A stretch of 22,308 nucleotides of DNA from a virus, in the IMG/VR virus record IMGVR_UViG_3300035661_002051, positions 1 to 22,308 of that record. The stretch is one strand, 5' to 3'. Positions 1,855 to 14,899 of the stretch are shown piece after piece. Below the pieces are notes generated by a model that was given only the letters and a program-made list of their open reading frames with translations, was not told the origin of the DNA and did no database searches. Both the position numbers and the translations under genes were made by a program. The first letter of the stretch is position 1. Every line of letters begins with the position of its first letter.

Positions 1855-2524
1855 TTTTGCCTCCAAATAGTGGCTGGGTCAATGCCTCCTTGATACGCTT
1901 GACTGCTATGTTGAAATAGTCCTTGTTTATCTCAATTCCAATGAAGTTCCGGCTCAGCTTGGCACAGGCCACGCCGGTCGTGCCGGAGCCCATGAAGGGG
2001 TCAAGGATGCTTTGGCCTCCAGATGCTGCGACCAGCGATATCATTAGCGCCTCTGGCTTGGTGGCCGGATGATACCACCAGTTATGCCCATCGCAATTTG
2101 TCCTTATGACATCCCAACCAATCGCTTTTTGCTTCACCGGACGCCATAATGCGATAGGATGGTAGCGATATGCGTAGCCGTCTTTCCTGGTTCTTGACAG
2201 AGTAAAGGCCGGAGCCCAAATAAGAATCCTATCTGGGCGCGGGGCGTAGTTCGCAAAGTCCAGAATCCGAGGCGCGGAGCCAAACCACATAACAGGGCCT
2301 CTTGCAGCATTGAGGCAAAGCGAGAGCACCTCTTGCGGCGGCATATCATAATCCCAATCCGCTGCCTTCACCCCATATGGGGGGTCTGTGACAACAGCGT
2401 CCACCTGTCTCAACGTAGGCATAATCTTCAGACAGTCAGCGCAGTAAAGTGTGGATGTTGTCTGGCCATTGCGCAGGATGACTGGGTTTGACCGTTTAGC
2501 CAGCATATTGAATATACTAAACAC
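1847..2524 (-). CDS. Beta-class DNA methyltransferase (N6-adenine or N4-cytosine, DPPY type)
   Basis: 225 residues. Motif IV TDPPYG (46-51) comes before the SAM-binding motif I region LDPFMGSGTTG (174-184) and GIEI (196-199), with HPATKPEAL at 152-160. This order defines the beta class of the N6/N4 methyltransferase family (PF01555). It transfers methyl from SAM to an exocyclic amine in DNA; adenine and cytosine cannot be separated by eye. No restriction enzyme gene is adjacent, so it is an orphan enzyme, plausibly for anti-restriction or regulation. The start is GTG, with GGAGG six nt upstream; the intervening ATG runs straight into TAG and cannot be used. Sampled lines inside the gene are about 60% G+C against 37-47% in neighbouring genes, suggesting recent acquisition. 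It lies just downstream of the inserted RCC1 gene. Confidence 0.88.
   Translation of the reverse strand: MFSIFNMLAKRSNPVILRNGQTTSTLYCADCLKIMPTLRQVDAVVTDPPYGVKAADWDYDMPPQEVLSLCLNAARGPVMWFGSAPRILDFANYAPRPDRILIWAPAFTLSRTRKDGYAYRYHPIALWRPVKQKAIGWDVIRTNCDGHNWWYHPATKPEALMISLVAASGGQSILDPFMGSGTTGVACAKLSRNFIGIEINKDYFNIAVKRIKEALTQPLFGGKND
1860..1864 (-). promoter_or_regulatory. Ribosome binding site fixing the start of the DUF1599-like gene
   Basis: GGAGG on the minus strand, 5 nt before the ATG at 1854. It overlaps the alternative TTG at 1866-1864, so that TTG is unlikely to be the start. It lies within the 3' end of the methyltransferase gene. Confidence 0.7.
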
Positions 2525-2540
2525 CTACATCCTCCATAAT
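2515..2540. repeat. Direct repeat copy A (26 bp, exact)
   Basis: These 26 bases recur exactly at 3180-3205. One mismatch and then a matching GCC extend the similarity. On the minus strand the repeat contains ATGGAGGATGTAGGTGTTTAG, here serving as the ribosome binding site and GTG start of the methyltransferase. In copy B the same bases encode the end of the HD-domain protein (MEDVGV, stop). The RCC1 gene lies between the two copies. Confidence 0.9.
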
Positions 2541-2565
2541 CGCCCAAGGTGGTCTTTGGGTGATT

Positions 2566-3114
2566 TCATTTCTTTGTTCTCCAATTGCACAACAGATTTA
2601 TATATGACCCATGCGTTAAAAGCTGCTTAGGGGTAGCACTGTTGATACATACTCCAATGCCAGGCTTAGTCTTCCCCCAGCCCCATACTGTACCGCCCTT
2701 TTTCATGGCTAGGGAATGATAATCGCCGCCAGAAATGGCTATAACATCAGTGAGCCCTAAAACCTGAACAGCGACATTGCTAGTGGAGTATTTCCCGTTG
2801 CCTAGTTGGCCATAACTGCCATTGCCCCAAGCCCAAACCGTGCCGTCATTTTTCAAGGCTAGGGTATGATATCCGCCCTCAGCAATGGCTGTTATACCGG
2901 CCAGCGCTGGCCCACCAACAGAAGTTACAACCTGAACAGGGGTATTCCTGCTAATATATGTTCCGTCGCCGAGTTCACCATTGTTATTTGTGCCCCAGGC
3001 CCATACCGTACCATCATTCAGTAAGACAATAACCCGTTTCACTCCGTTACCGGACTTAATGGCCGATATGACTGAGGATTCGTCAAATGGCTTTGACTTA
3101 GGTTTCTTGGTCAC
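2566..3114 (-). CDS. RCC1-repeat protein, short, probably inserted
   Basis: 182 residues with RCC1 (beta-propeller blade) repeats. Two clear copies carry the N/KNDGTVWAWGxNxxGxLGxGT signature (around 33-50 and 86-105). A third, degenerate copy lies at about 138-150 (GGTVWGWGKTKPG). Full RCC1 propellers have seven blades, so this is either a fragment or a short multimerising form. The C-terminal 35 residues fit the repeat poorly. The start is GTG with GGAGG six nt upstream. RCC1 repeats usually make binding surfaces; no catalytic role or partner can be read here. The gene sits between two 26-bp direct repeats that duplicate the junction of the flanking genes, so it looks like a cargo gene (moron) rather than a core replication gene. 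Confidence 0.8.
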   Translation of the reverse strand: MTKKPKSKPFDESSVISAIKSGNGVKRVIVLLNDGTVWAWGTNNNGELGDGTYISRNTPVQVVTSVGGPALAGITAIAEGGYHTLALKNDGTVWAWGNGSYGQLGNGKYSTSNVAVQVLGLTDVIAISGGDYHSLAMKKGGTVWGWGKTKPGIGVCINSATPKQLLTHGSYINLLCNWRTKK

Positions 3115-3120
3115 CTACCA

Positions 3121-3125
3121 CCTCC
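3121..3125 (-). promoter_or_regulatory. Ribosome binding site for the RCC1 gene (GTG start)
   Basis: GGAGG followed by six bases and GTG. The stretch TGGAGGTGGTAGGTG closely resembles TGGAGGATGTAGGTG before the methyltransferase. It could be a third, imperfect copy of the flanking repeat or simply a similar translation signal. Confidence 0.6.
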
Positions 3126-3179
3126 AGCCAGACAAGAGTGGCTGCTCTCGCCAACCCCTCTGGGCATCACTAGCACTGC

Positions 3180-4935: not shown

Positions 4936-5835
4936 TTAGTGCTTGAAAACTTTAGTCCTGTATAAATCCCAAGGGTCTCCTTGCTTCTCTGTAAGATGTA
5001 CTATATCCACTGCTATGCCCCACTGTGACAATTTCTTACTGGCCTTTCTCAGTTGGTCATTAGAGACATCAGGGTCAAACATCAACGTGCATCTTCCAAG
5101 GTGGAGCTTAGACAGCTTGATGGCCTGAACATCACTAATTGTCTTGCCTAGCACAGCAACTGAGGGGCAACCGAGCAGCTCAGACGCTCCCCAAGCTGAC
5201 ATCAATCCCTCTGTGATGATAAAGGGTTCATTGGGCCGAAGATACTGTATGTAGCCGACCACACTGCTCTTTCCTAAGCAGGCATCACTTTCTGATGGGT
5301 TTAGGTACTTAGGGCCACCTGCGTTACCGACAACCCTAGCCTGATAATACACCAGTTTGTTGTCTTCAAACAGCGGGAACACCAGTCTCCCCTGCAACCT
5401 GCCAACCGTGCCAAACCCTACCCCGTACTTCTGAATCATTTCTGGTGTTGCCCCTCTTTTGAACAGATAATCTGCTGCTCTAGCTGCCATCACCCCTTTT
5501 GCTCCGGTTAGAGGGGTCCATAGGTCAGCCGAGGGGGCCTCCACTTTTGGGCCTCTGGCACCCTCTCGTCTTAGAGACGCAACGGAAGGCTTGTGAGCCA
5601 TAAGACGTACTGCGTTGACCTGTTTCATAAGCTGGAGGGTCGTAAAAGTAGCTAGGCAGAACACACAACGGCCTACCCCTTTGGTGACATTGAAGTTCAA
5701 AGTAGGGTATCCGTTGTGGTCAATATGCATGCACTTTGGGCAGAGCACTTTAGTTTCGCCATCATGGCCTATGCGAGCCTGCCCCTTAGACCAGGAGTTG
5801 ATAACCTGCTCAGAAAGCTGAGTCTTCGTTCTCAT
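4936..5835 (-). CDS. DnaG-type DNA primase
   Basis: 299 residues. An N-terminal zinc ribbon has CPKC (C32, C35) and CVFC (C57, C60). A central region shared by DnaG-like primases reads GRLVFPLFEDNKLVYYQAR at 149-167. The Toprim domain has FIITEG with E209 and the metal-binding DPD at 254-256. It should synthesise RNA primers at the fork with the helicase encoded upstream. At 299 residues it is about half the length of cellular DnaG and lacks the C-terminal helicase-binding domain, as is common in phages. The ATG lies inside the 3' end of the helicase gene (26-nt overlap). No strong ribosome binding site precedes it, so translation is probably coupled to the helicase. Confidence 0.88.
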   Translation of the reverse strand: MRTKTQLSEQVINSWSKGQARIGHDGETKVLCPKCMHIDHNGYPTLNFNVTKGVGRCVFCLATFTTLQLMKQVNAVRLMAHKPSVASLRREGARGPKVEAPSADLWTPLTGAKGVMAARAADYLFKRGATPEMIQKYGVGFGTVGRLQGRLVFPLFEDNKLVYYQARVVGNAGGPKYLNPSESDACLGKSSVVGYIQYLRPNEPFIITEGLMSAWGASELLGCPSVAVLGKTISDVQAIKLSKLHLGRCTLMFDPDVSNDQLRKASKKLSQWGIAVDIVHLTEKQGDPWDLYRTKVFKH

Positions 5836-7102
5836 CGACGTAAATCCTGGCTACATCACGGTCCACCATGGCCTGTATAATCCTGCCATCATTTTCTTCC
5901 CGAGCCCCTGCTATGTACAAGCGAGCACGCTCAGGCTGACCGTACCTCTCCTCCTTGGTTTGGCAAAAAGCAACAGCCAAATCTACGATAGCCATTTTGC
6001 CTATGTCTTCAGCTACGTCTGACATATTGATTATCTCAGCGTTTAGGGTAGCTTTGTTGCTCTGGCTAGCAGTCCAGACTGCCATATTGAATTCGCTGCC
6101 CAAAGCCCTCAAGTCTGTGTATGTTCTTGATAACTCAAATCTTCTTTCTGAATACTTCCTAGTTGGCTCTAGCAGGTCCGCGTAGTCAACCACCAATACG
6201 TCAAACTTGATTCCTTGGGTGGCGTAGTAGTTGAGCAGCCCATATATCGTTTCGGAGGATGCTTTGTTAGCAGGGAAATACTTGACAACCAATTCTCCTC
6301 GGAGCTTCTTCAGCCTGTTGATTAGCTCTTGTGCTCTGTCATAGTTATCTGCTTGACGGAGAGCGCGCTTGGTGAGGTTAGTCACTGCTCTGTCATACCG
6401 TAGCTCAGTTGCTTCCTGCCTTAATTCAAGTGTAATATGCAGCACCTTGAGGCCGTTAGTCATGGCCCCATACCCAATGTTGACTAGGGAGAATGATTTG
6501 CCCCTTTTGGGTGGAGCAAGTATAGCAGCCAGCTCCCCGCGAGCAACCCTGATACGGTTGCCCAGGCCCACATTCAGCAGCTCTGCTTCTTCGCCTCTTA
6601 TGTATTTTAGCAACCGTTCTTTTGATGTGCCGAAGTATGTACTGTTTTCTACGTTAGGAAAACCGAACGAGGATATGCTGTCTAGTTCGTTCCTTAGCCC
6701 TAGCACATCAATGTTTTCCCCTTGCTCTGACGCTGCTATTATTGACTCCCCCAGCAAGGCTAGTTTTGTGCGCTTTACAAATCCTACAAGATGCTGCCGT
6801 ATGAACTCAATGTCATTGGGCTGTTTTGCCATCACGACTGTTAGGGCATCCTCGACAGCCTTGCGTTTGTCTTTGCTTTGGATTTGGTCAACCACCCTGC
6901 TGATTATGGAGCCATGTTCAGGCACTTTGCCATACTGCCTGTAGAACTCTCTAACCTCTTCCCACGCCAGCCCAAGGTACTCAATCACAAATGACTCTGG
7001 GGGGATGAACAAACCGAACTCTTTGAAGTGTTCGGGCTTCAGCAGGTACATGAACAACTCTTCTTGGAATGCCTTGCTTTCGCTGAGCCTAAACGGTTTC
7101 AT
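5810..7102 (-). CDS. DnaB-like replicative DNA helicase
   Basis: 430 residues. The RecA-fold ATPase domain has Walker A PPKRGKS (197-203), LELRQEATELRYD with the family's conserved E and R residues, Walker B VLVVDYAD (302-309), TASQSN (344-349) and a C-terminal basic/acidic segment with R residues that could act as the arginine finger. The N-terminal ~170 residues are helical and not closely similar to the DnaB N-terminal domain. It is expected to be a hexameric 5'-3' helicase unwinding phage DNA for the primase and polymerase in this window. It overlaps the upstream unknown gene by 14 nt and the primase by 26 nt. An AAGGAGAAGGGA ribosome binding site precedes the ATG. Confidence 0.9.
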   Translation of the reverse strand: MKPFRLSESKAFQEELFMYLLKPEHFKEFGLFIPPESFVIEYLGLAWEEVREFYRQYGKVPEHGSIISRVVDQIQSKDKRKAVEDALTVVMAKQPNDIEFIRQHLVGFVKRTKLALLGESIIAASEQGENIDVLGLRNELDSISSFGFPNVENSTYFGTSKERLLKYIRGEEAELLNVGLGNRIRVARGELAAILAPPKRGKSFSLVNIGYGAMTNGLKVLHITLELRQEATELRYDRAVTNLTKRALRQADNYDRAQELINRLKKLRGELVVKYFPANKASSETIYGLLNYYATQGIKFDVLVVDYADLLEPTRKYSERRFELSRTYTDLRALGSEFNMAVWTASQSNKATLNAEIINMSDVAEDIGKMAIVDLAVAFCQTKEERYGQPERARLYIAGAREENDGRIIQAMVDRDVARIYVDENEDSAF

Positions 7103-7646
7103 ACAGTCCCTTCTCCTTCATGATGTTGATGGATGCTGAATCCCCTTGTAATACTTTGCGGCAAAGGTTTGCTAATTTGTCATAATACTGCCAGTGCCGG
7201 GAGTCTAACGCCAGCAGGAACGCAAAAGCCAGGTCCTGCCCTGTAACTTGATATACAGCTTTTACCTTGAGAACTAAAGCAGTCAATTCGTCGGCGAAGG
7301 TTCTATTTCTCAGCAACAACTGGTCTCTCATGGCCTCAACATTGGTGAAGCCATACCGGTCCTGTCTATTGGTACGCCGGATGAACGCAGTGAGTAGCTT
7401 GGTTGACCGTAACAGACGGTGGTCCGCCCTAATGCCCCTGGACCTAGCCCACCTCATGACATAGCCCATGTATGGCTCTATGTCTTCGTCAGGTAGAAAT
7501 AGTTTCAGGGTGCAAAAGGTTCTGGCTAATGACTCCAGGCCCTCATCGGATACTACAGCGCTGAACCTCCGCTGGAAAGCAGCTACCTGGCCTTCCCTGT
7601 ACATAGCATAGAAGTCCGTCAGAGTGACAGGCTGTGTGTTAGACAT
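7089..7646 (-). CDS. Unknown replication-operon protein (185 residues)
   Basis: Not recognised. The sequence is almost entirely helical and rich in Arg/Leu. It has a basic stretch RWARSRGIRADHRLLRST around 86-103 and an acidic region EDIEPY before it. There are no membrane segments, Walker motifs or zinc ligands. It is the first clear gene after the palindromic spacer and overlaps the replicative helicase by 14 nt, ahead of the primase. In many phages that position is taken by a helicase loader or an origin/single-strand binding factor, so such a role is a reasonable guess from context only. GGAG six nt before the ATG supports the start. Confidence 0.65.
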   Translation of the reverse strand: MSNTQPVTLTDFYAMYREGQVAAFQRRFSAVVSDEGLESLARTFCTLKLFLPDEDIEPYMGYVMRWARSRGIRADHRLLRSTKLLTAFIRRTNRQDRYGFTNVEAMRDQLLLRNRTFADELTALVLKVKAVYQVTGQDLAFAFLLALDSRHWQYYDKLANLCRKVLQGDSASINIMKEKGLYETV

Positions 7647-7962
7647 GTTGTGCTCCGGAAGAAATCGAGAGAGAGGAGGGGAGGATTATGGAGGGGAGAA
7701 GAGAGAGTTGTATTTTATATTCTCTGAGAGAGTTGTATATATTATATATTATATTCTCTGAGAGAGTTGTATATTTAATATCCACTCTCTCATAGACTAC
7801 TCTCAGAGAGAGTAGTCTCTTCGAGAGTGGATATTCTAGAGTACAAGTATAGAGAGAAGAGACTTCTCTCTCTCCATTGTACTCTAGAGAGAATAGACTC
7901 GCGCGCGCGAGCGCGAGCGCGCGAGAGAGATTCAAACACATAGAACTCCTAAAGCCTCTCAT
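7639..7962 (-). CDS. Doubtful 107-codon ORF across the palindromic spacer
   Basis: An open frame whose ATG overlaps the UvsW-like stop by 4 nt (ATGA) and whose stop overlaps the next start by 8 nt (ATGTCTAA). These are exactly the junctions used by real genes here. Against coding: the product is low-complexity Ser/Leu/Arg/Tyr sequence, and the ribosome binding site is weak and distant. The 13-bp direct repeats inside are spaced 25 and 34 nt apart, so they are read in different frames and no peptide repeat is preserved. That suggests the DNA or RNA structure, not a protein, is conserved. Probably spurious, but the end geometry is worth noting. Confidence 0.2.
   Translation of the reverse strand: MRGFRSSMCLNLSRALALARASLFSLEYNGEREVSSLYTCTLEYPLSKRLLSLRVVYERVDIKYTTLSENIIYNIYNSLREYKIQLSLLPSIILPSSLSISSGAQHV
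7701..7772. repeat. Three direct repeats GAGAGAGTTGTAT
   Basis: The 13-mer gagagagttgtat occurs at 7701-7713, 7726-7738 and 7760-7772. AT-rich spacers (TATATTCTCT-type) separate the copies. The AT-rich tracts could be easily melted DNA or promoter-like sequence. Confidence 0.85.
7777..7835. repeat. Nested inverted repeat 1
   Basis: Outer arms of 13 bp, 7777-7789 (aatatccactctc) and 7823-7835, are perfect reverse complements. Inside them, 11-bp arms 7794-7804 (agactactctc) and 7808-7818 flank a 3-nt loop AGA. It could form a cruciform or a long RNA hairpin on either strand. Confidence 0.9.
7835..7888. repeat. Nested inverted repeat 2
   Basis: Outer arms of 12 bp, 7835-7846 (tctagagtacaa) and 7877-7888, are perfect reverse complements. 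Inner 9-bp arms 7851-7859 (agagagaag) and 7863-7871 again flank an AGA loop (7860-7862). It abuts the previous structure and shares its plan. Confidence 0.9.
7898..7925. repeat. CG-alternating palindrome
   Basis: ctcgcgcgcgcgag (7898-7911) is a perfect 14-bp palindrome. An alternative hairpin pairs 7898-7906 with 7917-7925. Alternating CG runs of this kind can adopt Z-DNA in principle. It is strikingly GC-rich beside very AT-rich repeats. Confidence 0.85.
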
Positions 7963-9338
7963 ATGATTTCAAATCCTTCTGCTTTAACAATTCGTAGCAT
8001 CTTATGGGATGCTGACTTGAGGAAGAAGTCACCTTCATCCTGAAACATATACACCAGTGCTTTGTCCTTAGTCGTTGATTTCCTAAGAACCCTACCAATA
8101 CGCTGTAGAACCCTGGTTACTGATTTGGTAGGACTTGCTAGGAACACCCAGTCTAGTTCTGGGACATCTATGCCTAAGTCAAAGATGTTAGTAGATATCA
8201 GGAAATTCAACTCCCCTGACTTGAGTTCCTCTAGCAGACTGATACGGGTTTCCAATGTATCGTTACCACTTACGAACTTAGCCTTTACCCCTGCCTCTTT
8301 ACACAAGGATTCAAGGTTATTTCCATGACTGATGTACTGTACCATAACCAGCCCTTTGGTATGTGGTTCTGCTTTCCGTAAGACATTGATTATTTGATTA
8401 TTTCTTTCAATGTTATGTACAACCCCTCTGCTCACAGCGAGTTGATAATCTAGGTATTCCTTGTGCTGGAAGGGTATCACAAACACTGTAGGTACAGCAG
8501 AAACATCCAAATCTATCAGGTCCATATTGCCTATGTGATAAATCACAGGGCCGAGGAGACCGGTGAGCTTCCTATTGCGGATTTTATCATCGGTATATGG
8601 TGTCCCAGAGAGACCAAACCTGAAGTATGCTTTCTCACAAGCAGAAACAACTTTAATCCATGTATCCGCAGAGCCTAGATGACATTCGTCTAGGATGACT
8701 ATCGGCACTTTGTTTAGCCAGGATAGAACCTCCGTATAATGGGCTAACTTCTTAGACATAGTTTGAACAGTAGATACTACTATCCTGCCGGATAAATCAT
8801 ATTTTCCTTTGTAAGCTAGTGAAACAGGTAGCCCTGTCCTCCCTAGGATACGCTTAGAACTCTGCTCAGCGAGGTCTAGGGAGTGGGTCAACCATAAGGT
8901 TTGACCTACTTTCTTCAATGAGTTGATGAGAGCAATAGCTATCTCTGTTTTCCCAGCGTTAGTAGCTAGGGATAAAATGCCTCTCCTTGCCTCTAAACTA
9001 GCCAACACTGCCTCTTTTTGATACTGCCTGAGTTCTATGCCATTCAAAGAGAGGTCTAGGTCGTAATCAAACTCCGGGGGAGCATTGACCACTGATACTT
9101 CTATGTCATGTTTAACACAGACCTCTGTAACCAGGTCTAACAGACCTGTTAGAAATCTCCCTTTAGGGGTGATAAAGTGAGCATATCCATCCCATGTTTT
9201 ACCATAAGAAGGAGCAAAGAATGCCCCTGGGACAGACAACTTCAGCTCTTTGTCTAGCATTCTGATGACTTTGAAATTGCCATCAGGGTTTTGTATGTAG
9301 CAGAAGTTGGGGGTACTTTTGACTTCAACCTGTTGCAT
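7959..9338 (-). CDS. UvsW-like superfamily 2 DNA helicase
   Basis: 459 residues. SF2 motifs: Q-like LRQYQKEAV at 103-111, Walker A ATNAGKT (125-131), DECH (217-220), SGTP (244-247), STNIFDLGIDVPELD (382-396) and QRIGRVLR (412-419). The N-terminal ~95 residues form a small extra domain, as in T4 UvsW. UvsW-type enzymes unwind branched DNA and R-loops, promote fork regression and help switch from origin- to recombination-dependent replication. The gene lies directly upstream of the palindromic spacer and the helicase/primase operon, consistent with that role. AGAGGG precedes the ATG. The T4 gene name is not assigned because only domain-level similarity is seen. Confidence 0.85.
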   Translation of the reverse strand: MQQVEVKSTPNFCYIQNPDGNFKVIRMLDKELKLSVPGAFFAPSYGKTWDGYAHFITPKGRFLTGLLDLVTEVCVKHDIEVSVVNAPPEFDYDLDLSLNGIELRQYQKEAVLASLEARRGILSLATNAGKTEIAIALINSLKKVGQTLWLTHSLDLAEQSSKRILGRTGLPVSLAYKGKYDLSGRIVVSTVQTMSKKLAHYTEVLSWLNKVPIVILDECHLGSADTWIKVVSACEKAYFRFGLSGTPYTDDKIRNRKLTGLLGPVIYHIGNMDLIDLDVSAVPTVFVIPFQHKEYLDYQLAVSRGVVHNIERNNQIINVLRKAEPHTKGLVMVQYISHGNNLESLCKEAGVKAKFVSGNDTLETRISLLEELKSGELNFLISTNIFDLGIDVPELDWVFLASPTKSVTRVLQRIGRVLRKSTTKDKALVYMFQDEGDFFLKSASHKMLRIVKAEGFEII

Positions 9339-9380
9339 GTACGCCCTCTTGCCAGGGATTACAGTGTTACATCAAATAAG

Positions 9381-9887
9381 TTAAGCAAGAACCACATCAA
9401 TTTCTTTAATTGCTTTGTAAACTGATTTGATAATGCGTTTATGCCTAAGATATAGTTTGAGTGCTCTTGGGTCATTGGCTTTATCTCTTTCGCCCCAGTA
9501 CTTATACCGCCGTAAATACTCAAAGAACAGGTGAGTATTCCTGCTCGCTGATATAGCTCTATACAAATGCCTGTCTTTCCTCAATTGTATCGCTAGGTCA
9601 ACAATTGAGTCATCTAGGGAGTAGTACACTTTGAACTTCTTGGTCTTTTTGAGGTATCTATCACCGATTTTGATAGGCAGGTCTACATCTACAGTCTCCC
9701 CCATCCAATCAAAGTCATCTAACAAATTGAACAGGTTGTTCGAGTTGGGGATTAGATACTTGCCCCAATTGGTTTCTAGGGCTGCCAGAGTGACTACAGA
9801 ATTTGCGTACAGCCCCGTTCTGTCTTGTTGTCGTTTAGCTGGGGGCAGGACTAGCTTTACGAACTCACGTTGAAACGGATAAACCAT
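9381..9887 (-). CDS. Endolysin, GH73-type glucosaminidase
   Basis: 168 residues matching the FlgJ/GH73 beta-N-acetylglucosaminidase core: GLYANSVVTLAALETNWGK with candidate catalytic Glu38, NSNNLFNL (48-55), and the FKVYYSLDDSIVDLA segment before RHLYRAI, corresponding to the family's F-x-Y-x-S-x-x-x-S-I-x-D pattern. It cleaves the glycan strands of peptidoglycan. There is no signal peptide or cell-wall-binding domain, so it would need a holin or other release. It is a compact single-domain lysin, typical of phages of Gram-negative hosts. GGAG five nt before the ATG. It follows the YiiX-like gene by 8 nt, forming a lysis pair. Confidence 0.75.
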   Translation of the reverse strand: MVYPFQREFVKLVLPPAKRQQDRTGLYANSVVTLAALETNWGKYLIPNSNNLFNLLDDFDWMGETVDVDLPIKIGDRYLKKTKKFKVYYSLDDSIVDLAIQLRKDRHLYRAISASRNTHLFFEYLRRYKYWGERDKANDPRALKLYLRHKRIIKSVYKAIKEIDVVLA

Positions 9888-10642: not shown

Positions 10643-11188
10643 CTACTTGCCGAACTTCCACCCAAGGCCCAAACCTGTCTGGACTGTGTTGGCCACAGGA
10701 ACTACAAAGTTCTGAACGTGCCTGAACCTGGCGTCAACATACAGATAGAGGCCTTTGTAAAATTGGTACTGCAACCCAAAGCCAGCAGTGACACCGCCCT
10801 TGTGCACTCCGCCTCGGTCATACAAGGACATGCCCACCATGGCATAGACCAAAGCCTTGTCTCCTGGGTTGAACGTGTAACGGCCTTCAGCGTCAAAAAT
10901 GGTGTAGTTCACCGAACCGGCAGGGGGCAAATTGGTAGTAAAATTGTGGTAGTACGCCCAGTTGACTACATCAATGGTGTCTCTGCTCACAGAGAGGCCC
11001 GCAGACCAATGAGGGTCAAAATCAAACAGGAAAGACCCCTGTAGCTGGAACTGCGAGGTCTCCATGGCGTAGGGGTAACTCCCCTGAGCAGACCACAGAT
11101 GGCCAACACCAAGCTGGGTCTGAACCTGAGCCATGAGGGCAGTGGACATAACAAACAGAGCTACTATGATACAGAATTTCTTCATCAT
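10643..11188 (-). CDS. Secreted outer-membrane beta-barrel protein
   Basis: 181 residues from the ATG at 11188, chosen over a longer frame (11272) because GGAGG lies 5 nt upstream and a signal peptide starts exactly here: MMKK, a hydrophobic core (FCIIVALFVMSTAL), and a probable cut after ALMA. The mature part has alternating amphipathic strands (QFQLQGSFLFDF, HWSAGLSVSRD, GVTAGFGLQYQFY, LYLYVDARFRH, TVQTGLGLGWKF), enough for an eight-stranded barrel. It ends in an aromatic-rich strand, as OMPs do. It resembles generic OmpA/opacity-type barrels. In a phage it may alter the host surface, for example blocking adsorption of competing phages, or help disrupt the outer membrane at lysis. Its ribosome binding site overlaps the end of the holin-like gene. 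Confidence 0.75.
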   Translation of the reverse strand: MMKKFCIIVALFVMSTALMAQVQTQLGVGHLWSAQGSYPYAMETSQFQLQGSFLFDFDPHWSAGLSVSRDTIDVVNWAYYHNFTTNLPPAGSVNYTIFDAEGRYTFNPGDKALVYAMVGMSLYDRGGVHKGGVTAGFGLQYQFYKGLYLYVDARFRHVQNFVVPVANTVQTGLGLGWKFGK

Positions 11189-11189
11189 C

Positions 11190-11465
11190 TCAACCTCCTT
11201 CTTGGGTTGTATCTGGTGTATCTGGTGTATCTGTAGAGCTAGGCTTTCTGTACGACAACTTGCTAGTTGCACCGATGCCCGTGGCTCTAGCTAGTAAAAT
11301 GCCAAGGCACGTTATGACACCACCATCTGCGTACTGGGTAATTGTCGCAGGTATCACCTCCTTCCAGTAATTGCCACTGATGTCTAGCGCCAAGCAAATA
11401 GCCAGCGCTAACAGTGCGTATCTAGTTGTGTTACTCTCTAAAAAGTGTACTTGAGGCTTTTCCAT
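11190..11465 (-). CDS. Holin-like small membrane protein
   Basis: 91 residues. There are two likely membrane segments, RYALLALAICLALDI (15-29) and DGGVITCLGILLARATG (47-63), joined by a short loop, then a polar tail ending in DTPDTPDTT repeats. Size, topology and position near two wall hydrolases fit a class II holin, which would form membrane lesions that release the endolysin. Sequence alone does not prove this; a small accessory membrane protein is the alternative. The start has an AGGAGG site with a 4-nt spacer. The C-terminal repeat comes from a 9-bp tandem DNA repeat at 11210-11233. Confidence 0.5.
   Translation of the reverse strand: MEKPQVHFLESNTTRYALLALAICLALDISGNYWKEVIPATITQYADGGVITCLGILLARATGIGATSKLSYRKPSSTDTPDTPDTTQEGG
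11194..11198 (-). promoter_or_regulatory. Ribosome binding site fixing the start of the OMP gene
   Basis: GGAGG five nt before two consecutive ATG codons (11188 and 11185). It lies in the last codons of the holin-like gene. It excludes the longer in-frame start at 11272, which would place 28 residues in front of a perfect signal peptide. Confidence 0.75.
11210..11233. repeat. Short 9-bp tandem repeat
   Basis: tatctggtg occurs twice and then partially a third time. It encodes the DTPDTPDT tail of the holin-like protein. Probably slippage in a tolerant, disordered region. Confidence 0.8.
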
Positions 11466-12868: not shown

Positions 12869-14899
12869 TCACTGGTCCATCTTCACGTTGCTGATTAAGA
12901 TACCATTTGCAAAGTAGTTATGCAGCTCAGTTGTAAGGTTCCACACAGTTTTTATTGATATTTCAAAGGCGTCATACCTAACTTCTGACGCGCCTTTGTC
13001 TAAGACGTAGCATCTAGCAGCAAGTTTGTCTTTATCCATGTAGCCAGCTGGGCTGTATTCTTGCTTGTCATCACGCCAGACCTTGTGGTCCGGGGTAATC
13101 AGCAACCCTACATCTTCTGTATAAAGGCGTCTCAACTTGTAAGTTCCTACATGCTTCATCACCTTTAGCACTTTTTGAGGCACTATGCTGCCGTCTGGAG
13201 AACGCCCCAGTATGATATCTCCAACTTTGATGTTTTCAATGGCGGTGCTCTTACCTTCTGGTTGAGCGATAGCAGACTGGCCATATATACAACCACTCCC
13301 ACCACCAGAAGAAGTAGTAGTCGTTGTGGTTGTTGTGGTAGTGGTCGTAGTGGTGCTTGAGGAAGTAGTAGTCGTTGTTCCTGTTCCAGTTGTTGTAGTG
13401 CCTGTAGTGGTCGTTGTTGTGGTAGTCGTTGTGGTCGTTGTAGTCGTTGTGGTAGTGCCTGACCCAAGCCCTCCGAGGGGGTCATTGATATGCGGGCAAT
13501 AACGGGTGATAGACTTGGACCTCTCCAGCTTAACTGCTGAAATCAATACAGTACAAGCCTCCAAGTTGGAATGTATCTTGTAGACAGGGCGAACTACCAC
13601 AGTACGGCCATACGTGTTCTTCCACCCATTGTAATACAGTATAACCCACTGCCCCAAGGAGCTGGCTGGAAGTTGCTCAGTATCTAAGGTAACTGTTTCA
13701 ATTGCAGTAGTACCATCTTTCTCATATACCGCCAGTTGTATCATGTAGTAAGACCCAGTAGCAGATAAAGAACCTGAGTTAAGTTTGACTATAGCCTGAG
13801 CTGAGAGATAGCCTCCTGGGGGCACTAAGTGCCCATACGCAGTTTTGGGGGATAGTGTAGCACTTCCAACGGCGGTATTTACTGCAGTGTACTTTAGTGC
13901 CCCGTATCCAATGAGTCCAGCAGTTGGGTCAATGACGAAAGTTGGTGTACCAGTTCCTGTGTCTAAAGTGACTACTGCATCCCATTCGTTCATAGCTATT
14001 GGGTTTGCGCTACTATATGTCCCAAAGAAGCTGTTGGGGAGTAGGTTTGTTAGAGAGTAATGGTATGTATCCAAGTCAACCAGTTTATGTGGGTATCCTA
14101 CTTCAGCAGGCACATTGGCTATATGATGGTTGTACACGCCTTGAAGCCAGCGTATGCTGGTTTTTACCCATACAGGTATGCTAGAAGGAGTTGCTTGATA
14201 GGTTTGACCCAAGTCTATAAACTGGTCACCTAATGACACCCCGCTGATAGAAGGCCCAATAGCCCAAACCAGGTAGGCAGCAGCAGCTGTTGATGGGGTA
14301 GTCTGCCCAAGAACTCCAGAAGTTGTAACAACATTATGGCCATTAACGTAAGAAACTACCAGGTCTTCAAACCAAGATGTTAGTGACTGAGGCTGCACAA
14401 GTTGTACCCTAACCACTCTACCTGCAGCATTTATGTTGTGCAGTAGAGTGTCTAGAACAAGTGTTAAAGTTCCGTTACCGTTATCTGTAACACTATCAGG
14501 AGCAGAGATTTCTCCTATAACCTCGTATATCTTGCCGTACTCAATTGCTCCTGTTTTGGGGTTGGGCTCTGGCTCACTAACTAATTCTCCATACTTAAAC
14601 CCATAATACAAGGTCAGGGCTGTTCCTGTTGGTATAGCTATGTTCTGGTAGTTAGGCCAGCTCAGCACGTTACCATTGTTGTCTATACCAAACCCTGACA
14701 AAATAGACATTTTGTCAACTAGTTGAGTAGTAAGACCCCCAAAAGCAAATAGACCTGCGTATGGGTAACAGGTCCTAGCAAACTGCCTAGTTTTCTCAGT
14801 AAGGTAGTCTAGAAATTGTTCACGGATGTCAGTCAGTCCCATCAGGTTCTTAGGGTAAACATTCACCTTACTTTTTAGCATTTCTACTCTGGTAGTCAT
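12869..14899 (-). CDS. Tail/adhesin protein with poly-Thr linker and C-terminal Hint autoprocessing domain
   Basis: 676 residues in three parts. Residues 1-480 look like a virion structural or receptor-binding protein: a helical start, then beta-rich repeats, with a carbohydrate-binding-like jelly-roll suggested at about 300-465. Residues 482-536 are a linker with 42 threonines plus Gly/Ser. Residues 537-671 form a Hint domain: Cys537 at the splice-like N-terminus (GSG-CIYGQSAI), IENIKVGDIILG, LLITPDHKVW with T602 and H605, VWNLTTELHNYFANG with H660, and the terminal ILISN with Asn671. The usual penultimate His is Ser670, and only VKMDQ follows, so full protein splicing is unlikely. N-terminal cleavage, release or cross-linking as in bacterial intein-like domains is more plausible. 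ATGA overlap with the gpI-like gene places it in the baseplate operon. Confidence 0.85.
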   Translation of the reverse strand: MTTRVEMLKSKVNVYPKNLMGLTDIREQFLDYLTEKTRQFARTCYPYAGLFAFGGLTTQLVDKMSILSGFGIDNNGNVLSWPNYQNIAIPTGTALTLYYGFKYGELVSEPEPNPKTGAIEYGKIYEVIGEISAPDSVTDNGNGTLTLVLDTLLHNINAAGRVVRVQLVQPQSLTSWFEDLVVSYVNGHNVVTTSGVLGQTTPSTAAAAYLVWAIGPSISGVSLGDQFIDLGQTYQATPSSIPVWVKTSIRWLQGVYNHHIANVPAEVGYPHKLVDLDTYHYSLTNLLPNSFFGTYSSANPIAMNEWDAVVTLDTGTGTPTFVIDPTAGLIGYGALKYTAVNTAVGSATLSPKTAYGHLVPPGGYLSAQAIVKLNSGSLSATGSYYMIQLAVYEKDGTTAIETVTLDTEQLPASSLGQWVILYYNGWKNTYGRTVVVRPVYKIHSNLEACTVLISAVKLERSKSITRYCPHINDPLGGLGSGTTTTTTTTTTTTTTTTTTGTTTTGTGTTTTTSSSTTTTTTTTTTTTTTSSGGGSGCIYGQSAIAQPEGKSTAIENIKVGDIILGRSPDGSIVPQKVLKVMKHVGTYKLRRLYTEDVGLLITPDHKVWRDDKQEYSPAGYMDKDKLAARCYVLDKGASEVRYDAFEISIKTVWNLTTELHNYFANGILISNVKMDQ
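12887..13291 (-). other. Hint domain (bacterial intein-like) coding segment
   Basis: 135 residues, the size of mini-Hint domains without a homing endonuclease. Blocks A (Cys537), B (T602-x2-H605) and F (LHNYFANG) are present. The block G dipeptide is Ser-Asn instead of His-Asn. Confidence 0.8.
13292..13456 (-). repeat. Threonine-rich linker, ACN codon repeat
   Basis: Encodes residues 482-536: runs of 18, 4, 1, 5 and 14 threonines separated by Gly or Ser, ending SSGGGSG before the Hint Cys. All four ACN codons are intermixed without a simple period. Confidence 0.9.

Follow-up and report, generated by a model that had tools for sequence, protein, structure and literature searches.

A constrained array of nested hairpins and direct repeats ahead of the DnaB and primase genes of an uncultured phage: a candidate replication-initiation region

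The gap and its gene neighbourhood

The 22.3-kb viral contig IMGVR_UViG_3300035661_002051 (positions 1-22,308, analysed as a whole and referred to here as the window) comes from an uncultured phage, and in the studied region every recognisable gene in the list of open reading frames lies on the minus strand. In the order of transcription, an endolysin and a UvsW-like helicase are followed by a gap of 312 bp, a 185-aa protein, a DnaB-like helicase and a DnaG-like primase. This gap is the longest intergenic gap of the window, the next measuring 156 bp in our gene list. The genes and the features of the gap, in transcription order, are the following.

9381-9887, minus strand: glucosaminidase-type endolysin (domain/family searches)
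7959-9338, minus strand: UvsW-like superfamily 2 helicase, stop codon adjoining the gap (Pfam ResIII/Helicase_C; PHROG 16, DNA helicase)
7647-7958: the gap, 312 bp
7898-7925, no strand assigned: CG-alternating imperfect palindrome (inverted-repeat search)
7835-7888, no strand assigned: hairpin A, with 12-bp outer arms and 9-bp inner arms separated by a 4x5 internal loop
7777-7835, no strand assigned: hairpin B, with 13-bp outer arms and 11-bp inner arms separated by a 4x4 internal loop
7701-7772, no strand assigned: three 13-bp direct repeats with AT-rich spacers (ATACAACTCTCTC on the coding strand)
7647-7700, minus strand: CT-rich tail (coding strand) with a GGAG ribosome-binding-like sequence before the next gene
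7089-7646, minus strand: 185-aa protein of no known family, in the slot of SPO1 gp20.1
5810-7102, minus strand: DnaB-like replicative helicase (Pfam DnaB_C; PHROG 19)
4936-5835, minus strand: DnaG-like primase (Pfam DNAG_N; PHROG 47)

These gene calls agree with a preliminary description of the sequence, which had placed the site between a UvsW-like helicase and the DnaB and primase genes, and they add the intervening 185-aa gene. The helicase matches relatives of SPO1 gp19.5 at 31.8%. The 185-aa protein has no Pfam or PHROG match, profile searches detected no initiator domain in it, and profile and protein scans of viral and genome contigs detected no relatives beyond the one close relative of the window, L006 (IMGVR_UViG_3300043540_000103), against which its gene has a dN/dS of 0.039. 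Its AlphaFold model (pLDDT 49.6) was too poor and was left out of the analysis. A 17-residue W..[FY]......C motif of this protein aligns with gp20, but the match falls short of significance (hhalign probability 1.1%; HMMER E 0.008 when a single sequence was searched), and homology to gp20 is not supported.

Alongside this SPO1-like replication module, the window encodes an outer-membrane beta-barrel protein (Pfam OMP_b-brl, 10643-11272, minus strand), which suggests a Gram-negative host.

Structure of the gap

The helicase transcript would first enter the CG palindrome, then hairpins A and B, then the three repeats and the CT-rich tail. The palindrome forms a weak terminator-like hairpin for this transcript (7918-7897 on the minus strand), with a T tail consisting of CTATTCTCTC only, where an intrinsic terminator would need a T run; neither hairpin A nor hairpin B is followed by one. 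Both hairpins close on the same triloop, AGA on the plus strand and TCT on the coding strand, with CTC-TCT-GAG and AAG-TCT-CTT as their centres. The direct repeats, GAGAGAGTTGTAT on the plus strand, lie at 7701-7713, 7726-7738 and 7760-7772 and are thus unevenly spaced, by 25 and 34. They fall largely within 7706-7780, the 75 bp with the lowest GC in the window (0.21 against 0.458 for the window). Over its full length, at a GC of 0.43, the gap is not AT-rich, and it is rich in GAGAG/CTCTC. The preliminary description had reported three 13-bp direct repeats, two hairpins with outer arms of 13 and 12 bp, inner arms of 11 and 9 bp and an AGA loop, and a CG-alternating palindrome; all of these were recovered, the repeats at 7701-7772, the hairpins at 7777-7888 and the palindrome, in imperfect form, at 7898-7925.

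The structure of the gap is real and well beyond chance. Folding of RNA and of DNA, which had been proposed as a check, gave structures exceeding those of shuffled sequences in every case: the minus-strand RNA fold has an MFE of -119.6 (z -10.2), the plus-strand RNA fold a z of -7.4 and the minus-strand single-stranded DNA fold a z of -8.6, and for each of them none of 100 dinucleotide shuffles was as good. The gap has three pairs of perfectly matching arms that are 11 bp or longer, a number reached in none of 300 dinucleotide shuffles. A two-level rule (inner arms of at least 8, outer arms of at least 10, loop of 3-6) was applied to 1,631,674 bases of other phage loci, some of them overlapping, from which eleven loci that duplicated others or the window had been dropped beforehand. 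It found the two hairpins of the window and one in L006, a copy of hairpin A, and nothing else; hairpin B of L006 has a broken outer arm and is missed by the rule for that reason. Outside the window, the 21-bp hairpin core turned up only in L006.

The shared two-level plan of the hairpins had been read as the product of duplication or of functional design rather than chance. The part of this claim that concerns design over chance is supported by the shuffles, by the low substitution rate and by the gaps of SPO1-like phages, both described below. Duplication is not supported: A and B share a plan and not a sequence, and their alignment is equalled by 183 of 1000 shuffles.

Constraint on the gap

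Selection on the gap was assessed from a single sequence pair, the window and L006, which has about 95% DNA identity to it. L006 was the one close match in protein scans of viral contigs; a protein scan of genome contigs gave no further relative, and no DNA match was found among phages. At the four-fold degenerate sites of the helicase, the 185-aa gene and DnaB, 79 of 464 positions differ (17%). By comparison, 13 of 276 aligned positions differ over the whole gap (P 4.1e-10 against the four-fold sites), and 2 of 112 in hairpins A and B together (binomial P 2.4e-7). Hairpin A is identical in the two sequences (0/54), hairpin B differs at 2 of 58 positions (7777-7834), the direct repeats at 1 of 43 and the CT tail at 1 of 54, and for each of these four segments the binomial P lies between 4e-5 and 3e-3. 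No significant constraint relative to L006 is found in the CG palindrome (2/28, both at one arm end) or in the first bases of the gap (3/25). Because the hairpins vary far less than the four-fold sites, the gap is constrained at the level of nucleotides, and this one pair of sequences points to purifying selection on it without covariation.

Covariation had been suggested as a check on the pairing, and L006, the sole close relative, does not provide it: both changes in hairpin B fall within the outer arms and are one-sided, one giving G.T and the other a mismatch. When the L006 sequence is folded as RNA (z -6.5), the outer stem of B is no longer predicted. L006 is also without a 33-bp unit that carries one of the repeat copies.

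Corresponding gaps in SPO1-like phages

The order of lysis genes, UvsW helicase, gap, gp20.1 and DnaB is found as in the window in SPO1 and in the Exiguobacterium phage EalM-132, with syntenic gaps of 217 bp and 247 bp, respectively. Both gaps contain TTTAAA repeats in an 11-bp phase and a perfectly paired hairpin (12-13 bp) whose triloop is GAA or TTC, and by eye the SPO1 gap starts with a terminator-like hairpin. Perfect hairpins with arms of at least 11 bp are present in 17 of 22 distinct gp20 gaps, one of them (LysYB1) terminator-like; the gp20 gaps of L013, L099, L146, L160 and L165 have no perfect hairpin of that length. The end of the hairpin is 39-53 bp ahead of gp20 in the SPO1-type, EalM-132, L116 and L141 gaps, whereas in putative Shanette-like loci the hairpin lies about 155 bp ahead of it. 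The same place in L100 holds a hairpin of 16 bp centred on TAC-CTT-GTA, and the middle gene of that locus misses the gp20 profile. In Moonbeam and Troll, which are of the Bastille type, this gap is no longer than about 100 bp.

Compared with the SPO1-type gap (gp19.5-gp20.1; Herelleviridae, Spounavirinae), the gap of the window occupies the same slot between the helicase and the gene preceding DnaB, and has triloop hairpins, direct repeats and an AT-rich stretch in common with it. The SPO1-type gap differs in having one short hairpin with a TAC-GAA/TTC-GTA core, without nested two-level hairpins or a CG palindrome. The TAC-NNN-GTA core, found in 9 of the 10 SPO1-type hairpins compared, is absent from the hairpins of the window, as are the 11-bp-phased TTTAAA repeats; the AT-rich minimum is there, as judged within 22 kb.

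In some relatives the gene following the gap encodes an initiator-like protein: those of LysYB1 (Lysinibacillus) and Troll (Bacillus) have weak N-terminal matches to replication-initiation PHROGs (E 3e-5 and 3e-4), although neither phage is among those carrying the hairpin element. The gp20 proteins of LysYB1 and Goe26 have a clear initiator-like N-terminus by alignment, yet their gaps lack the hairpin element or have a terminator-like one only. The gp20 homologues at L009:4444-5640 and L013:2036-3253 carry an extra N-terminal domain by alignment, which is replication-initiator-like in L009; the gaps ahead of these two genes have either no hairpin element or a terminator-like hairpin only.

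A broader comparison covered 44 non-redundant helicase-DnaB loci, 23 of which have no gap of at least 90 bp by our rule. Hairpins were found in 5 of 25 helicase-DnaB gaps and in 4 of 70 control gaps (P 0.051), a marginal excess and a weak statistic, since L006, SPO1 and EalM-132 do not pass the filters for open reading frames and terminators and so are not counted as positives.

Dispersed elements in SPO1 and EalM-132

The element is not confined to the gp20 gap. Elements consisting of a TAC-GAA/TTC-GTA triloop hairpin and phased CTTTTAAAAG-like repeats are dispersed over both genomes, at gene positions that match between the phages. In SPO1 they lie at L182:11318-11510, L182:32970-33115, L183:28320-28433 and L183:48872-49000 (11.3, 33.0, 78.3 and 98.9 kb), and in EalM-132 at L185:37290-37452 and L186:34400-34555. 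The sites are the terminal repeat, the region ahead of phoH (at 34.5 kb in EalM-132, with a hairpin that shares the core), the region ahead of gp20 and, in SPO1, also the region ahead of thymidylate synthase. The four lowest-GC 120-bp windows of each phage are element sites, gp20 gaps included, with the terminal-repeat copy of EalM-132, which lacks the TAC-TTC-GTA hairpin, counted twice among its four. After these four, GC jumps from 0.19 to 0.27 in SPO1 and from 0.12 to 0.24 in EalM-132.

Among SPO1-type hairpins, 8 of 11 pairs are changed on both sides, with 99% pairing and no G-U pairs. This covariation is largely circular, as eight of the ten hairpins were selected by perfect pairing and the 4-nt-loop (Shanette-like) hairpins were left out; the pairing and the lack of G-U follow from a search that required perfect pairing. 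The non-circular part of the evidence is the recurrence of the hairpins at the same gene positions and their shared core.

Possible functions of the gap

The gap is tentatively proposed to be a cis-acting DNA element, most likely the replication-initiation region of an SPO1-like replication module, a proposal to which we give somewhat less than an even chance. It is favoured because the element seems to act at the level of DNA and combines AT-rich repeats and palindromes with adjoining replication genes. The AT-rich direct repeats at 7701-7772 would be the candidate part for melting, for protein binding or for both, the perfect palindromes A and B may mark the site by extruding or by binding a dimeric protein, and the gap could then be where the 185-aa protein and the DnaB helicase, encoded just downstream, are loaded. 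In favour of initiation are the nucleotide constraint that coding does not explain, the synteny with SPO1 and EalM-132, the hairpins and low-GC phased repeats of the syntenic gaps, the initiator-like proteins encoded after the gap in some relatives, the repeat structure proposed as a functional site in phage Shbh1, and the position of the AT-rich minimum in the repeat array.

Several observations weigh against it. No hairpin sequence is common to the window and the SPO1-like phages, the TAC-NNN-GTA core included. GC skew, suggested earlier as a means of locating an origin, shows no switch anywhere in the 22-kb window, and the protein next to the gap has no detectable initiator domain. LysYB1 and Goe26, which have an initiator-like gp20, appear to be without a proper hairpin element, and an origin has been proposed elsewhere in phage K. 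The excess of hairpins in helicase-DnaB gaps is marginal, and there is a single close relative, showing no covariation.

Known or proposed origins offer partial likenesses. Like the window, iteron-type origins of phages and plasmids combine direct repeats with high AT content ahead of the replication genes, whereas the repeats of the window are short (13 bp) and unevenly spaced, differ in copy number in L006, and adjoin a protein without a recognisable initiator domain. Papers on other phages describe further candidates. For phage Shbh1, PMC5135824 proposes a role in replication or regulation for a structure of inverted and direct repeats at the GC-skew minimum near 60 kb. For Staphylococcus phage K, an origin is proposed in the gp190/gp191 gap, which is long, untranscribed and contains direct repeats (PMC9241854, PMC11598898); a similar low-GC locus is proposed in Kayvirus (PMC8952766), and for a Listeria phage an origin is suggested by AT content (PMC12282133). 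The phage K gap resembles that of the window in its length and direct repeats, but it lies near lysis and terminase genes and not before DnaB, and it is the lowest-GC region of phage K, whereas the gap of the window is overall not AT-rich. The literature searched, with the SPO1 genome paper outside it, yielded neither a mapped replication origin for SPO1-like phages nor a description of the dispersed SPO1 elements, and no claim is made that these are unpublished.

A structured leader or processing RNA is possible, but somewhat doubtful. The helicase transcript would run through the gap, and A and B would be processed by an enzyme of the RNase III type or protect the DnaB/primase message at its 5' end. 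This account is almost as good as a replication-initiation region because the gap lies within an apparent operon, with the surrounding genes all on one strand; read-through of the CG hairpin is plausible, its T tail being weak. The fold of the coding strand has the better z (-10.2 against -7.4), and the low substitution rate suits an RNA equally well. The layout of A and B (about 55-59 nt, a lower stem, an internal loop of 4-5 nt and an upper stem) is, we presume, like that of T7 RNase III sites, a likeness in size and in the arrangement of two stems around an internal loop; a long imperfect hairpin with an internal loop is in any case present. What speaks against an RNA is the broken outer stem of B in L006, with no covariation, and the result of the Rfam search, which gave sub-threshold matches only, none near the gathering score. 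Moreover, gene 55 of SPO1 has, by eye, a promoter-like sequence downstream of one copy of the element, which places that copy outside a probable leader, and as the element recurs at several unrelated genes, a DNA-level site explains it more easily than a leader private to the DnaB operon.

It is unlikely that the gap is a transcription switch, in which the CG hairpin would be a terminator, the palindromes operators for a dimeric phage or host regulator, and the AT-rich repeats the promoter of the replication operon. The terminator-like hairpin at 7918-7897, the promoter-like sites at 7739-7712 (minus strand) and at 7714-7743 and 7724-7752 (plus strand), and the terminator-like start of the SPO1 gap are consistent with such a switch, but neither count is clearly above chance: seven promoter-like sites compare with 4.0 (sd 2.1) expected from shuffles of 7000-9500, by a consensus that may not be that of the host, and two terminator-like sites with 2.3 in the same shuffles.

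A small gene is very improbable. A 107-codon frame (7639-7962, minus strand) fills the gap exactly, with an overlap of a few bases with both neighbours, and stays open in L006, where the 33-bp deletion is in-frame. Nevertheless, its omega is 0.6 against 0.01-0.075 in the neighbours, its codon preference -0.054 against +0.03 to +0.06, it has no family match, and coding would leave the nested palindromes unexplained; judged by these sequence measures, the frame is probably no gene. Accidental folding of low-complexity GA/CT sequence, for which only the richness in GAGAG/CTCTC speaks, has next to no probability, as dinucleotide-preserving shuffles never match the gap and the constraint relative to L006 is strong.

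Two further classes of site were considered. Protelomerase hairpin-telomere sites are large palindromes with an even and perfectly palindromic centre, and such a site is rejected because the centres of A and B are 3 nt long and therefore odd; an attC-like site was set aside.

Extending the proposed replication-initiation region to the dispersed hairpin-repeat elements, it is conceivable, at a rather low probability, that these represent several replication origins or sites of partition or packaging, and that the gap of the window is a re-invented version of the gp20 site in a phage of a Gram-negative host. Being syntenic, constrained and furnished with hairpins, the gap offers a precise and inexpensive target for mapping, with a single stretch of 312 bp in the window and, in cultivated SPO1, four of about 200 bp.

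Other features of the window

Apart from the replication module, an RCC1-repeat protein is encoded at 2566-3114 (minus strand), flanked by a DNA methylase and an HD-domain gene. L006 is without most of the window from 1877 to 3179, and the N6/N4 DNA methylase gene at 1847-2524 is for the greater part missing with it. A 676-aa protein (12869-14899, minus strand) with no Pfam match contains a long poly-threonine linker, and its C-terminal part resembles, by eye, a Hint/intein-type domain.
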